Below the pieces are notes generated by a model. The model was not told the origin of the DNA. It worked only from the letters and a program-made list of their open reading frames with translations, and made no database searches. From assembly GCA_002724245.1 (NCBI GenBank), contig PBOG01000101.1, forward strand, positions 1 to 64,000: DNA of 64,000 nucleotides, given 5' to 3'. Position 1 is the stretch's first letter, and every line of letters starts with the position of its first letter. Made by a program: the position numbers and the translations under genes. This DNA is from Planctomycetaceae bacterium. GTDB taxonomy: Bacteria > Planctomycetota > Planctomycetia > Pirellulales > Pirellulaceae. Positions 26,450 through 34,442 of this stretch are shown piece by piece.

Positions 26450-27469
26450 CTATTGAGCCGATGATCGTTTGCCATTGGGCCCACCACTGATAAGTTCACC
26501 ATCGGGAAGTGGGCGGGCAGCGGTGAGCAGTCCACGGGCGAACAGATGTTCTTTGAGGCGTCTGAAATCTTCGAAACTGTCGCGGTATACCCAAACCGTA
26601 ACCGTGGTTTGAGGTGTACTTTCGGCCGCCAGCAGTGCGGAGAAGTGCGAGTCTCCCCGCAAGGCATCAGTGAGTGCTTCTCCGAGTTGATCGGCAGTCG
26701 GGATCAGTTCGAAATGTGCCAGTTCTGCAAACTGTTGGACGACCGGGCCGAGATCAGTGTTAACTGTGCGTTCGCCGCGTTGCAGTGTGTACCGCATGCG
26801 AAACCCCTCAACCGGTCCGATGACTTCTGTCACGCGAGATGAGTTTCGTAGCTTCCAGAGTTGCTGGCGTCCATCCGCTTGCATGCGTTTGACAAGTTCG
26901 TTGATGGCGACATGTGCCAGCCTCCCGGACTTCAGTCGCAAATGAATTTCCTTGCCGAAGACGGTTTTAGCCATTGGGGTTGGCAGATGTTTCAACTCGA
27001 TAGGTGCCTTGGTTTCGACTGCAACAGCCTGTAAGGTTTGTTGCACCTGCGCAAGTTCGCGTTCAGCAGCAGAGACCTGCTGCTGAACGTTCAGACGCTC
27101 TTGTTGTGCTGCGTCGAGGTCTTCCCGAGCGTTGCTCAGCTCTTTTTCGGTGGCGGTCAACAATGTCAGGAGTTGATCCCGCTCGATACGTCGATAAGCA
27201 ATTTCCTGTTCTTGGAGATTGATTTTGCTTTGAGTCTTGTGGATGTCCGCCTCCAGTCCAGAGGCGGTACTTTGTAGTGTCTGGATCCCGTCGTTTTCGA
27301 CAGGCTCTGTTGTTGCTGGTGGTGGATCTGGCCGTTCACTCATAGCGTCTTTGGCACGTGCGCCGACAATCATTACTAGAATGATAAGAATGCCGACGAG
27401 GTTGGCCACGATGTCCAGGAAAGCATCTTGCCCTGGCGCGTCGGTTTCATGCCGTGGTTTATGTCTCAA
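26450..27469 (-). CDS. MotB/ExbD-like single-pass protein with the proton-site Asp
   Basis: A 339-residue protein, last of a three-gene operon. One membrane helix at about 20-36 is preceded by F17-L18-Asp19; Asp19 occupies the place of the proton-carrying Asp in MotB/ExbD. A coiled coil (about 70-155) and a globular C-terminal domain (about 165-335, with TVWVYRDSFEDFRRLKEHL) follow. No OmpA-type peptidoglycan-binding motif is evident. It starts with TTG; the upstream gene's stop overlaps it as TTGA, so translation is coupled. An internal ATG (MSERPD) would lose the helix. Likely partner of the channel gene at 29157-30581. Confidence 0.8.
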   Translation of the reverse strand: MRHKPRHETDAPGQDAFLDIVANLVGILIILVMIVGARAKDAMSERPDPPPATTEPVENDGIQTLQSTASGLEADIHKTQSKINLQEQEIAYRRIERDQLLTLLTATEKELSNAREDLDAAQQERLNVQQQVSAAERELAQVQQTLQAVAVETKAPIELKHLPTPMAKTVFGKEIHLRLKSGRLAHVAINELVKRMQADGRQQLWKLRNSSRVTEVIGPVEGFRMRYTLQRGERTVNTDLGPVVQQFAELAHFELIPTADQLGEALTDALRGDSHFSALLAAESTPQTTVTVWVYRDSFEDFRRLKEHLFARGLLTAARPLPDGELISGGPNGKRSSAQ

Positions 27470-29160
27470 CGGTTAGCCCTTTCGACGATCATGCCACTGT
27501 CGCGCAGCAGGGCGGATAGCTCCCTGAAACGGTGTTCCGCCTCTGGCAGAACATCGATTTTCAAAACAGGTTTCCAGTATCCGCCCGGGATGGCTAATCC
27601 CCAGCGTTCCATGCGATCCCAGATGCGGGCAATCAAGGACTCAATGTCGTTGCTCATTGCACCGCTTAACGGCACGGCCAGTTCGCGCGTGTCAACGCCA
27701 CGTTCTTTTTGTATTACAAGTTGGTCCACAAAACACTTCATGCGAATTGTCCGTTGGACTTCGGTCAGGTTGTTCTCGTATTTGGGTAACGCAAAATTGC
27801 TTCCCCGACTTTCCGCCAGGCTGGTCGGTGAGAAGTCGTCCGTAGGGGTTCCGAGAGAGGTGAGGCCAGTGGTGGGCTGGTTTGACGCAATGCCTGCGTT
27901 CTTTGTGGCGGGCTGGTTTGAAGCAATCTCTGCGTTCTCTGCGGCGGGCTTTCGAGGTTTTGCACGGTTCGCCGAAGTGGTTGACGTTCCTCCCGTATTT
28001 TCAGTCTCCGGTTGTTGGGAATGAGTGTGGGTTTCTTTTCCAGCGACATCTCCTGAACCGGCGGTGGCAGGTGGTCGACGGTTGTTTTCGGGTGACTCCG
28101 ATGTGCCACTCCGACGTGCTGCTGGACGCTGCCTGCCACCTCTGCCACGGCCAGGTCCATTTGCTGACGTGCGGACAAAGCCTCGGTTTGTGGTAGCCCG
28201 TAATTGGCCGCTGCCGCCGCCGTCCTGTTGGTATCGGCGAGGCATAGCGCGAGTCAGCGCGAGCTGGCGCTTGCGTGCTAATTCGATCACGCGGTGAAGC
28301 GAGTTTTTCAAGCTGGAGTCAGGTGGTGGATAGTGCAGTTCGCGTTCTGCGGCGACAAGTTCGTAACCAAACTCATCGTCCCAGCCTTGCATTGATCTGC
28401 GTGCCGCCCCGTAGGCCAGGATGCCATCCGAACGTACAACGATCAGGGGATAAGGCTCTTCGGTATCACCAACACGTCGGTAGTATTCACGCTTGGCGCG
28501 GAGTACAGCTGCCAGCGGATTGCCGGGGCCGGTCGGACCAGCCAGGTCTTCGGGGGTGAGTACAATTGCCTCAGGTTGGATGATCAGACCAGTGGAAGTG
28601 CATTCGACATAGAGTGGACGTCGCTGTGTTGCCTGCGGACCATGGTAGGGAATGATGGCATAGGATGCGGGACGTTGTTGGAGTTTCTCGCGGGAGTTTG
28701 TCAGCTGCTCTTGTGTGTGGTCGATTTGGGCCTGCAGTTGAGCCAATTGCCGACGAGATTTGTCCAAGGTGTCCTGGTTTGGTGAGCTAAGTGCGCGGAA
28801 TGCTTTTCGTTCTTCAAGCAGTTTTTGCCACTGCGATTCCATTTGGTTGAGGTGCTCTTCCAGGTGACTCAGCGCCAGACGGCGGTCTGCTAATTCGGTT
28901 GTCTTTTCTCCGCGTTGTTGCTCGAGGATTTCCGATCTCCAGATCAGGTCTTCTCGTTGTTCCTGGCGACGTTGAGCGGCAGCCTGGGCGGCCGAGTCAT
29001 CCACGGGCTCGGAGCGGACTATTTCTACGGCCTGTACACGTGCTTGCTGGACAACAAGAACGAGCAACACGATCAGCGCACCCATGGTGCAGACTAGTAC
29101 GGCCAGAAACGGAAACAATGCTACGCGTGTTTCCGGTTTGCGGTTGGCTCGTCGTCTCAT
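27466..29160 (-). CDS. MotB/ExbD-like single-pass protein lacking the proton-site Asp
   Basis: 564 residues. The membrane helix (about 15-37) shares the F-L-x-x6-G-x-L-I framework of the next gene, but the key position is Ala20, not Asp. A coiled coil (about 55-165) follows, then a globular domain (about 167-285, SYAIIPYHGP, PLIVVRSDGILAYG), a long low-complexity linker rich in Gly, Arg, Pro, Thr and Asn (about 290-435) with a 12-residue tandem repeat, and a C-terminal domain. It overlaps the upstream gene by ATGA and the downstream one by TTGA. It is probably an envelope-spanning partner of the ExbB/MotA-like channel. Confidence 0.78.
   Translation of the reverse strand: MRRRANRKPETRVALFPFLAVLVCTMGALIVLLVLVVQQARVQAVEIVRSEPVDDSAAQAAAQRRQEQREDLIWRSEILEQQRGEKTTELADRRLALSHLEEHLNQMESQWQKLLEERKAFRALSSPNQDTLDKSRRQLAQLQAQIDHTQEQLTNSREKLQQRPASYAIIPYHGPQATQRRPLYVECTSTGLIIQPEAIVLTPEDLAGPTGPGNPLAAVLRAKREYYRRVGDTEEPYPLIVVRSDGILAYGAARRSMQGWDDEFGYELVAAERELHYPPPDSSLKNSLHRVIELARKRQLALTRAMPRRYQQDGGGSGQLRATTNRGFVRTSANGPGRGRGGRQRPAARRSGTSESPENNRRPPATAGSGDVAGKETHTHSQQPETENTGGTSTTSANRAKPRKPAAENAEIASNQPATKNAGIASNQPTTGLTSLGTPTDDFSPTSLAESRGSNFALPKYENNLTEVQRTIRMKCFVDQLVIQKERGVDTRELAVPLSGAMSNDIESLIARIWDRMERWGLAIPGGYWKPVLKIDVLPEAEHRFRELSALLRDSGMIVERANR
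27874..27950. repeat. 36-bp tandem repeat inside the 564-aa gene
   Basis: Two full units and part of a third, each starting GGGCTGG/GGGCT at 27874, 27910 and 27946. They encode a 12-residue repeat (NAEIASNQPAT-type then NAGIASNQPTT-type) in the linker. Probably length-variable. Confidence 0.75.
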
Positions 29161-30581
29161 GCAGCGCGATCCTGGCTGTCGGTTGGATCCAGTTCCAACG
29201 GTGAGGTGGGCTCTGGAATACTGCCGAGTCGAGTATTGAGCAGATGGATTGCTGCTGCCAGGCTATTGACCGTGGCTTCAAAATGCTGTGCACCGGACAA
29301 CGAGCGCAAGTTGTCATTGAGCGCTGCCTCCAGCTGGCGGATGTCCCGGCTGGCATCAATTGCCCGCGCCAGAAGCTCGCCGTGTTTGTTGAGTTCGGCC
29401 TGTTGTTGCTGCGCCGCCGTAGCGCTCTCCGAAAGTGTGGCCTGCCAGCGATTCGCATCAGCGCGGTGTTCGGCTGCCAGTTCCCGCTGCTGATTGAGCA
29501 AGATCGCCACCTGTTCCAGTAAGTGATCTTGCGCCTGGTTCCAACGCTGGGTAGCAGAGTTGGCGTCAGTCTCGCTTTGTTCTGCCAAAGTATGCGCGTA
29601 CTGTTGCAGCGATCCGTTCAAGGTATTTGACAGGGCTTGTTCAGTCTGGGTAAGTGAAGCCTGGCTCAATTGAGACCACTGCTGGTGAGCGGAGTCAACA
29701 GTTTTTTGCCACAAGGTCGTTTGTTGGGCGACCAGTTCTTCACTCGTGTGGATCACTTCCTGACACATTTTCTGGACTGACGCGACGTAGGGGTCGGTTT
29801 GGGTGCCCCATTGTGGAAATCGTCCCAGCAGCTCTTTATTGGTGCGATCGTCGACTTTTGATAGTAATTGCGACTCGATTTGATCAATCAAGAACTGTAC
29901 GAACATCAAAACGATCGATAATGACAAGGCTAGTGCCGTCGTATCGAACGCCACGTACAGGCCATCCAGTAGTTTTTGCATCGCCGTCTGAATCGAGTTG
30001 GCAAGTTCGACAGGGTCGAGATTTCCCAAGGCCTGGGTGATTCCAATGACCGTACCGAGGAAACCCAGCATCGGTGTTGCCCAGATTATGATGCGTGCGA
30101 ACGCATAGCCTTCCTGCTGTCGTCCCTGATCCAGGTCGGAAAGATACTTGAGGTCTTCGTCGAGTCCATCCGCTGTTCCCTTGCGACGGATCAGCTCCAG
30201 AATGTTGGAGAGTCGCATGCCGAGATAAGACTCGCGGGTTCTCTGTGGTAGCTGCTGGAGTTGTGCCAGGAGTTGCTGACAATGATTCAGGCCGGTGCCG
30301 CCTGGCGCGGGTTCTCCCAGGCTGATTGAGTCCAGTGAGTGGTATTGCGCCACGACATTAATCAGTTTTGCGATCAAGGTGGCCATGCCGACGAAGAACA
30401 TCGTGGTGGCGACGTACGAAACCGGATGCGTCGCGAAATAGCGACGCATTAATGGGTTCGTGAACGGTCCCTTGAACAAGAGTGTGTAGAAAAAACTGCT
30501 AGCTGCGAATCCCAGGATCAGAGGCCAGCCAAGACTGGCGATGGCGTTGCGCAGGGAATTTCGGTCAGATGATCCGGACAA
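29157..30581 (-). CDS. MotA/TolQ/ExbB-like proton channel with a long helical tail
   Basis: 474 residues, first gene of the operon, TTG start with AGGAA 7 bases upstream. Two N-terminal helices (about 18-35 and 55-78) and a cytoplasmic segment are followed by the family core at 160-235: ATPMLGFLGTVIGITQAL and GLYVAFDTTALALSLSIVL, with the conserved Thr177 and Thr214/215 that line the proton path. Beyond 245 comes about 210 residues of Gln/Ala-rich helix, probably a coiled-coil tail. ExbB and TolQ lack such a tail; MotA-like ZorA has one. It probably forms the pentameric channel around the two downstream single-pass proteins. Confidence 0.85.
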   Translation of the reverse strand: MSGSSDRNSLRNAIASLGWPLILGFAASSFFYTLLFKGPFTNPLMRRYFATHPVSYVATTMFFVGMATLIAKLINVVAQYHSLDSISLGEPAPGGTGLNHCQQLLAQLQQLPQRTRESYLGMRLSNILELIRRKGTADGLDEDLKYLSDLDQGRQQEGYAFARIIIWATPMLGFLGTVIGITQALGNLDPVELANSIQTAMQKLLDGLYVAFDTTALALSLSIVLMFVQFLIDQIESQLLSKVDDRTNKELLGRFPQWGTQTDPYVASVQKMCQEVIHTSEELVAQQTTLWQKTVDSAHQQWSQLSQASLTQTEQALSNTLNGSLQQYAHTLAEQSETDANSATQRWNQAQDHLLEQVAILLNQQRELAAEHRADANRWQATLSESATAAQQQQAELNKHGELLARAIDASRDIRQLEAALNDNLRSLSGAQHFEATVNSLAAAIHLLNTRLGSIPEPTSPLELDPTDSQDRAA

Positions 30582-33378: not shown

Positions 33379-33434
33379 TCTAATATAGACGGCGGCTGTC
33401 AGGGTACTTTGGAGTTGTGGAGAGAACCCCCTTG

Positions 33435-34442
33435 ATGCTGCACCAACATCTGACGACCGACGAGTTGGCGAGCCTGTTTGGGATGGCGGGCGCGTCCCGG
33501 CAGTCGCTTGCCTCCCGGTTTGAAGGCAGCCGCGAAAAACATTCATGTAGTGACAGTACGCTTGTTACAGAGGAACCGTTGCAGGCCGAGCAACGTGTCC
33601 TGCTTCATGCTGTGCACGAGGGGCTTGCCCGTCGCTTGAGTCTTGCCTGGTCTACTTTAGTGCGGGCCCAGCTGGAGATTCGATTAGTCGATATCACGTG
33701 CATGAGCCCGGCAGAATTTCTGGCAAAGCGAGAAAGTCCTGGCTGTGCCATTGCACTTCGTTCAGCAGAGAGCGATAGCCCGATCGTGGTGAATTTGCCT
33801 TTGTCAATGTTGCATCTGATGATCGATCGGATGTTGGGGGGAGAGGCTGGCGAACAACCGGCTGTGCCTTCGCCATTGACAGAAATCGAACAACGCCTGG
33901 TTGGTCGCATCTACGACACATTGATCGATGAATTGCGACAGGCATGGGGGCCGGTTTGGGAGGGGGAGTTGTCGATTGAACGCGTGACAGAACGGTCTGA
34001 GGTGGACAACAACCTGGCGTTAGATACGCCCGTGGTTTCATTCCGGTTTGAGTTGCGGATGGGAGCTTTTCAGGACGCGCTCGATCTTTGCTTTCCCGCT
34101 TGTTTGCTGCAGCCGATACTAACGCAGTGTGTTGTTGAGGCCGCCGACGATTCTGGAATGAACGAGGAATTTCAGGACCGGTCTGCAGCCGACTCCGACA
34201 CGGACATCGTCGACGTAGTGCTCGCGCTCCCGGAAACACAAATCCATCCGCAAGACCTGCTGGATCTGGAGGTTGGCGACCTGCTTGTCACAGATCAGGA
34301 TGTGACCGCTGCTTTGCCGGTATATATGTCTGGGGCTAGGGTGATGGCGGGGATTCCTGGCGCGATTCAGGGCCACAAGACGGTGCAAGTGACAGCCGTT
34401 TCTGAGATTCCCCGAGACCGCGCAGACAAGACGTTGGGGTAG
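33435..34442 (+). CDS. fliM: Orphan FliM-like flagellar motor switch protein
   Basis: 335 residues from the ATG at 33435 (GGAGAG upstream; an in-frame GTG at 33417 is possible). The N-terminus LTTDELASLFG matches the CheY-P-binding FliM motif (the D-E-I-D-A-L-L type). The middle domain is CheC/FliM-like (FRFELRMGAFQDALDLCFP). The C-terminus is a SpoA domain (LDLEVGDLLVTDQDV). FliM builds the rotor C-ring and receives CheY-P. No other flagellar gene is in the window. Confidence 0.85.
   Translation: MLHQHLTTDELASLFGMAGASRQSLASRFEGSREKHSCSDSTLVTEEPLQAEQRVLLHAVHEGLARRLSLAWSTLVRAQLEIRLVDITCMSPAEFLAKRESPGCAIALRSAESDSPIVVNLPLSMLHLMIDRMLGGEAGEQPAVPSPLTEIEQRLVGRIYDTLIDELRQAWGPVWEGELSIERVTERSEVDNNLALDTPVVSFRFELRMGAFQDALDLCFPACLLQPILTQCVVEAADDSGMNEEFQDRSAADSDTDIVDVVLALPETQIHPQDLLDLEVGDLLVTDQDVTAALPVYMSGARVMAGIPGAIQGHKTVQVTAVSEIPRDRADKTLG

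Follow-up and report, generated by a model that had tools for sequence, protein, structure and literature searches.

In MotB, ExbD and TolR, a pentamer encloses a two-helix axle, the Asp of which carries the protons. In published models of 5:2 motors, the axle is assumed to be symmetric, with two alternating Asp residues (e.g., PMC10659934), and a model of stator rotation takes both of them to act (PMC10659934). The AglRQS system of Myxococcus gliding has one MotA/TolQ-like protein and two MotB/TolR-like partners (PMC9389320). In PVC bacteria, unequal pairs of TolR-like genes beside a TolQ-like gene have been published, and the accessible part of that paper states the Asp for the paired vWA axle family (PMC12204202). 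The accessible portions of these papers report no Asp-less partner for the PVC pairs (PMC12204202) or for AglRQS (PMC9389320), and a search of open-licence papers returned no description of the three-gene set analyzed here. The first-pass annotation of this DNA had stated that no characterised system with this make-up was known, which was too broad, since unequal Asp-bearing pairs are described in the accessible text of both sources (PMC9389320, PMC12204202).

The A-B2-B1 locus and its products

The window, the whole stretch of 64,000 nucleotides that was analyzed, belongs to a genome of 7.79 Mb in 287 contigs (G000), in which ten PF01618 channels were found. It comes from a Pirellulaceae-like planctomycete with Planctomycetaceae/Pirellulaceae MAGs as close relatives. 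The channel gene A is followed by the partner genes B2 and B1 (Table 1). The three open reading frames were confirmed as first annotated, with the same lengths, with TTG as the start codon of A and B1, and with 4-base overlaps at the A/B2 and B2/B1 junctions. The overlaps had also been taken as a sign of fixed stoichiometry, which is a weak argument because the spacing varies among orthologues (−20 to about +170 bases) and because a variant channel, A', is often unlinked from its partners; neither the 4-base overlaps nor the TTG starts are kept in detail among orthologues. A FliM/FliN-like flagellar switch protein is encoded a few kb from the triad (window positions 33417-34442, plus strand).

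Table 1. Genes and key codons of the A-B2-B1 locus (positions in the window)
Feature	Position	Strand	Basis
A, MotA/TolQ/ExbB-family channel subunit, 474 aa, TTG start	29157..30581	(-)	ORF and PF01618
B2, Asp-less putative axle partner, 564 aa	27466..29160	(-)	ORF, AlphaFold2
B1, Asp-bearing putative axle partner, 339 aa, TTG start	26450..27469	(-)	ORF, AlphaFold2
B2 codon 20 (Ala), homologous to B1 Asp19 by helix alignment	29101..29103	(-)	helix alignment
B1 codon 19 (Asp), invariant	27413..27415	(-)	orthologue reads
A codon 180, Gly of GFLGTVIGI; His in A'	30042..30044	(-)	channel motif reads
A codon 213, Asp of AFDTT; Asn in A'	29943..29945	(-)	channel motif reads

In the Pfam profile search, A matched PF01618 with 48 bits against a cut-off of 22.9. 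T177 and T215, which lie in the GT(V) and TT motifs of the last two helices, are invariant, and a cytoplasmic coiled coil (about residues 265-474) forms the tail of ~210 residues past the fourth helix that had been pointed out earlier. The AlphaFold2 model of B1 (pLDDT 84.6) has a helix at residues 15-42, a coiled coil at 60-151 and a confident domain at 170-330. That of B2 (pLDDT 75.9) has a helix at about 16-46, a coiled coil at 55-162, a domain at 166-313, a disordered linker at about 314-448 and a C-terminal domain at 449-564. These layouts bear out the coiled coils and unfamiliar outer domains described for both partners, in which Pfam, NCBIfam and PADLOC gave no named domain beyond coiled-coil noise. 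Comparison with the sequences of solved structures returned coiled-coil noise for B1 and B2 and nothing for A, and a Foldseek search of both partner models against the PDB gave nothing below E 0.001, with E. coli TolR (5by4) listed for B2 alone at E 0.43. An ExbD/TolR or OmpA-like periplasmic domain found no support in either partner from Pfam, hhalign or Foldseek. By hhalign, the likeness of the partners to ExbD was not significant; one alignment set Ala20 of B2 opposite the ExbD Asp (E 0.095) and another was out of register.

When the helices alone were compared profile to profile, B2 aligned with B1 without gaps and with Ala20 opposite Asp19 (E = 2.9e-6, probability 88%), as the first-pass annotation had seen. 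Because control comparisons of the two helices with the four helices of A and with an ExbD helix gave E 0.1 or more, this likeness exceeds mere hydrophobicity. The full-length comparison also aligns the helices, but its score is inflated by the coiled coil. Judged from these profiles, the B2 helix is homologous to that of B1. The axle-family trait, a single N-terminal helix with an Asp, is present in B1 and absent from the focal B2, which has Ala20.

This homology bears on whether B2 might be a force transducer like TonB or TolA, whose helix would bind the outside of an A5(B1)2 motor and whose periplasmic region would pass force to the outer membrane. The three genes and the order of helix, coiled coil, linker and terminal domain recall ExbB-ExbD-TonB and TolQRA, and such transducers were described beside TolQ-like genes in 2025 in the accessible part of PMC12204202. 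However, the B2 helix, ALFPFLAVLVCTMGALIVLLVLVV, has no His and no SHLS motif of TonB/TolA transducers, and its homology to the B1 helix also speaks against such a role.

Distribution of the triad and residues at the Asp position

A was matched in 78 of 80 genomes of the same family, and the triad was found throughout the order and also in other families of the class, so that it occurs across Planctomycetia; a few class members are without a match (e.g., G184 and G675). The proposed conservation of gene order held, since the 40 same-family loci read have A-B2-B1 with a single exception, L047 of G042, in which B1 lies on another contig. A paralogous type 2 triad was seen in L090-L096 (genomes G297, G276, G367, G315, G043 and G018), with a B2 of roughly 270 aa carrying Ser at the Asp position, an Asp in B1 and an AFDTT or AFNTT channel. 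Another locus (L066, G012:C11) has an ordinary B2 and B1 beside a much longer-tailed channel protein of about 820 aa. Family f108 (L226, L227) has B2-like and B1-like periplasmic domains with different helices, without the Asp motif or an adjacent channel; these domains are possibly a decoupled remnant of the motor.

Residue 20 of B2 was readable in 148 loci, as Ala in 128, Ser in nine (six of them from the type 2 triad), Asp in seven, Thr in two, and Glu and Gly in one each, and the Asp of B1 was read in 154 loci, where the counts for both partners take in all fetched loci and some species are present twice, from two collections. The remaining B1 loci are L130, with no readable motif, and the two of f108. 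The B1 Asp was also found in further A' genomes, one of which (G736) reads SFLD, and it is kept in every channel-bearing locus whose helix was read. In B2, Ala20 is present in all Pirellulaceae read save the Pirellulaceae-like L166, whose channel was replaced. The earlier expectation that Asp19 and Ala20 would each be invariant was thus right for Asp19 throughout and wrong for Ala20; invariance of both everywhere is ruled out, as the B2 position is also D, E, S, T or G.

In the channel, position 213 is Asp in 119 of 120 loci that combine Ala in B2 with a motif match, the 120th (L075) being a regex match at another place in the protein (SMRTSGANL); the motif was not read in a further seven loci. 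In the seven other PF01618 channels of the same genome that were compared, this position is hydrophobic or Arg, never Asp.

The A' channel and residue 20 of B2

In loci with an acidic B2, a channel variant was found in which LGTVxHFG and AFN[TA]T replace GFLGTVxGI and AFDTT. Deviant motifs are GFN in G598 and AFNTS in G458, and a further locus (L215) combines Asn213 with Gly180 and has a Ser in B2. By order-wide pattern searches, HFG channels occur in f95 (genus g456), f97, f98, f101 and f107, all of them families of the order. The B2 residue was Asp in 13 of 13 further genomes that were HFG-positive or congeneric with HFG-positive ones. One candidate (G509) was rejected as an A' genome, since the HFG pattern matched by chance and its B2 carries Ala. 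In the tree set, 17 of the 18 A' genomes have an acid at B2 residue 20 (16 Asp, 1 Glu) vs none of the 48 rows with the ordinary channel; the exceptions to Asp are Glu in G598 and Ser in G555. Within the triad family, an acid in both B1 and B2 was seen only with A'. The claim that one partner alone keeps the Asp therefore stands for the focal form and fails for loci with A'; because they were found only with A', the orthologues with two acids sharpen the original idea more than they refute it. In A' genomes, B2 and B1 are adjacent wherever both are readable on a contig, and A' is usually elsewhere; in L166, the replacement channel stands inside the operon.

With residues 180, 181 and 213 masked, the A tree groups the A' channels in a single clade (support 100) on a long branch. 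The partners of A' are scattered on the B2 tree, for which the helix was left out: the B2 of L166 is placed with good support beside that of the Pirellulaceae locus L059, the B2 of genus g456 groups, also with good support, with those of L214 and L219, and the other A' partners are placed in other parts of the tree. On it, channel type changes five times and B2 acid state six times. A single B2 group of all A' partners was rejected by the AU test (p 0.00046; p 0.013 without L166), with L157, whose channel is off its contig, counted with A' on the grounds that it shares an identical B2 with G727, and the L166 channel forced among Pirellulaceae channels was rejected as well (p 0.003); these tree tests used a quick tree method, included some long branches and took an A' group named after the data had been seen. 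The AU tests also ruled out that the D/D loci are one clade. As placed on the B2 tree, the A' channel is paired with at least three separate B2 lineages, and the simplest reading is at least three transfers in which A' took the place of A. All independent pairs point in the same direction, three of them well supported and five when all branches are counted; a sign test is unable to reach 0.05 because only three pairs are well supported.

The mutual information between B2 residue 20 and channel type is 0.82 (maximum 0.86), the highest of 495 B2 columns, with the next-best column at 0.61; the best of 324 B1 columns reaches 0.43, in a set where a few A' rows were trimmed at the wrong motif. This covariation places the B2 helix in the ion path of the channel, and it favours, for the focal system, a 5:1:1 heterodimeric axle with one Asp. 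Many columns of A separate A from A' completely; the causal ring residue is unreadable from covariation because A' is a single distant clade with many discriminating sites, and His180 and Asn213 are candidate ring determinants.

The transducer role considered above becomes quite unlikely on these data, since a helix outside the motor would not explain why Asp or Glu comes with A' or why residue 20 is the best predictor of channel type. Another arrangement would be one ring serving two homodimeric complexes: the motor, A5(B1)2, and a form that is silent or regulatory, A5(B2)2. By itself, the covariation between B2 and the channel fits B2:B2 as well as B1:B2 occupancy, and the same dimer question is open for AglQ and AglS (PMC9389320). 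Yet the B2 and B1 genes are tightly paired even where A is unlinked, and A5(B2)2 would lack an axle acid in most lineages although B2 is kept across Planctomycetia, which leaves this arrangement unlikely. The complex may also be a non-conducting scaffold spanning the envelope, in which the residue changes reflect helix packing only. No function is known for the complex, six residues (A, S, T, G, D and E) are tolerated at the B2 position, and f108 keeps the periplasmic domains without Asp helix or neighbouring channel, all of which would suit a scaffold; however, the B1 Asp and the Thr/Pro/Gly motif of the channel are conserved wherever the channel is present, and the swaps with A' are specifically to acid, so that a scaffold is very unlikely.

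The proposed motor and the known systems

The triad is probably a 5:2-type ion-driven motor of the MotA/ExbB/TolQ superfamily, with a B1:B2 heterodimer as its most likely axle. As first proposed, a heterodimer inside the channel agrees with the covariation that puts the B2 helix there; a single acid does not hold throughout, since acid occurs in both partners with A'. From the sequences we infer the heterodimer, the 5:1:1 stoichiometry, the proton flow and the rotation. Five A subunits would ring one B1 and one B2 helix, B1 Asp19 would carry the protons, and B2 would be a true axle helix with Ala at the Asp position in the focal form. In the focal ring, Asp213 would be an additional acid next to the conserved Thr pair; where lineages have the A' ring (Asn213, His180), the charge would stand on the axle instead, as the Asp or Glu of B2. 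Motion between ring and axle may be passed to the envelope via the coiled coils and the pair of unfamiliar domains in the periplasm.

The stricter form of this proposal, a rotary 5:1:1 ion motor working with one Asp, whose axle lacks the second acid and whose ring carries charge in its stead, is tentative and has somewhat less than an even chance of being right. If it is true, 5:2 motors do not universally need two axle carboxylates, and the repeated channel replacement together with an acid on the second axle helix would mean that the two sites act as one ion path. Since the putative one-Asp motor is widespread and natural two-Asp lineages exist beside it, the need for the second Asp is directly testable. 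Channel replacement matched repeatedly by a change at one axle residue would be unusual evolutionary evidence of ring-axle coupling.

The same genome encodes, in L079 (G000:C3, 4591-8133), a channel with an AFETT motif and two Asp partners, followed by a single-pass VWA protein (PF13519). By its gene content, this locus matches the published PVC vWA system as far as the accessible text describes it (PMC12204202).

ZorAB of Zorya resembles the focal set in a channel with a long cytoplasmic tail, and PADLOC gave a weak ZorA match (E 9.5e-9). Membership in Zorya defence was rejected, as the NCBIfam ZorA score was 27.9 against a cut-off of 500 and the triad has a core distribution in its family that is not defence-like; no ZorB match was found among the B1 and B2 partners. 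With ExbBD, TolQR and MotAB, the triad shares a PF01618 channel with GxxGT and TT motifs and a single-helix Asp partner, whereas their axles are homodimeric with two Asp residues. AglRQS likewise combines one channel-type protein with two partners, but AglQ and AglS are both reported with Asp, and its role in gliding is known (PMC9389320). Also among the closest known systems are the TolQ-TolR pair-vWA systems of the PVC bacteria, where, according to the accessible part of PMC12204202, Planctomycetes have two unequal single-helix partners behind one channel gene. In that type, Asp is present in each of the two partners (L079 and L098) and the channel reads AFETT, whereas the focal B2 has Ala and the focal channel AFDTT; the focal periplasmic domains are larger and unrelated, no VWA match was found in A, B2 or B1, and the next downstream genes lie on the opposite strand. 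Unequal partner pairs are thus already known, and, set against the accessible literature, the focal triad appears to be new by its Asp-less partner.
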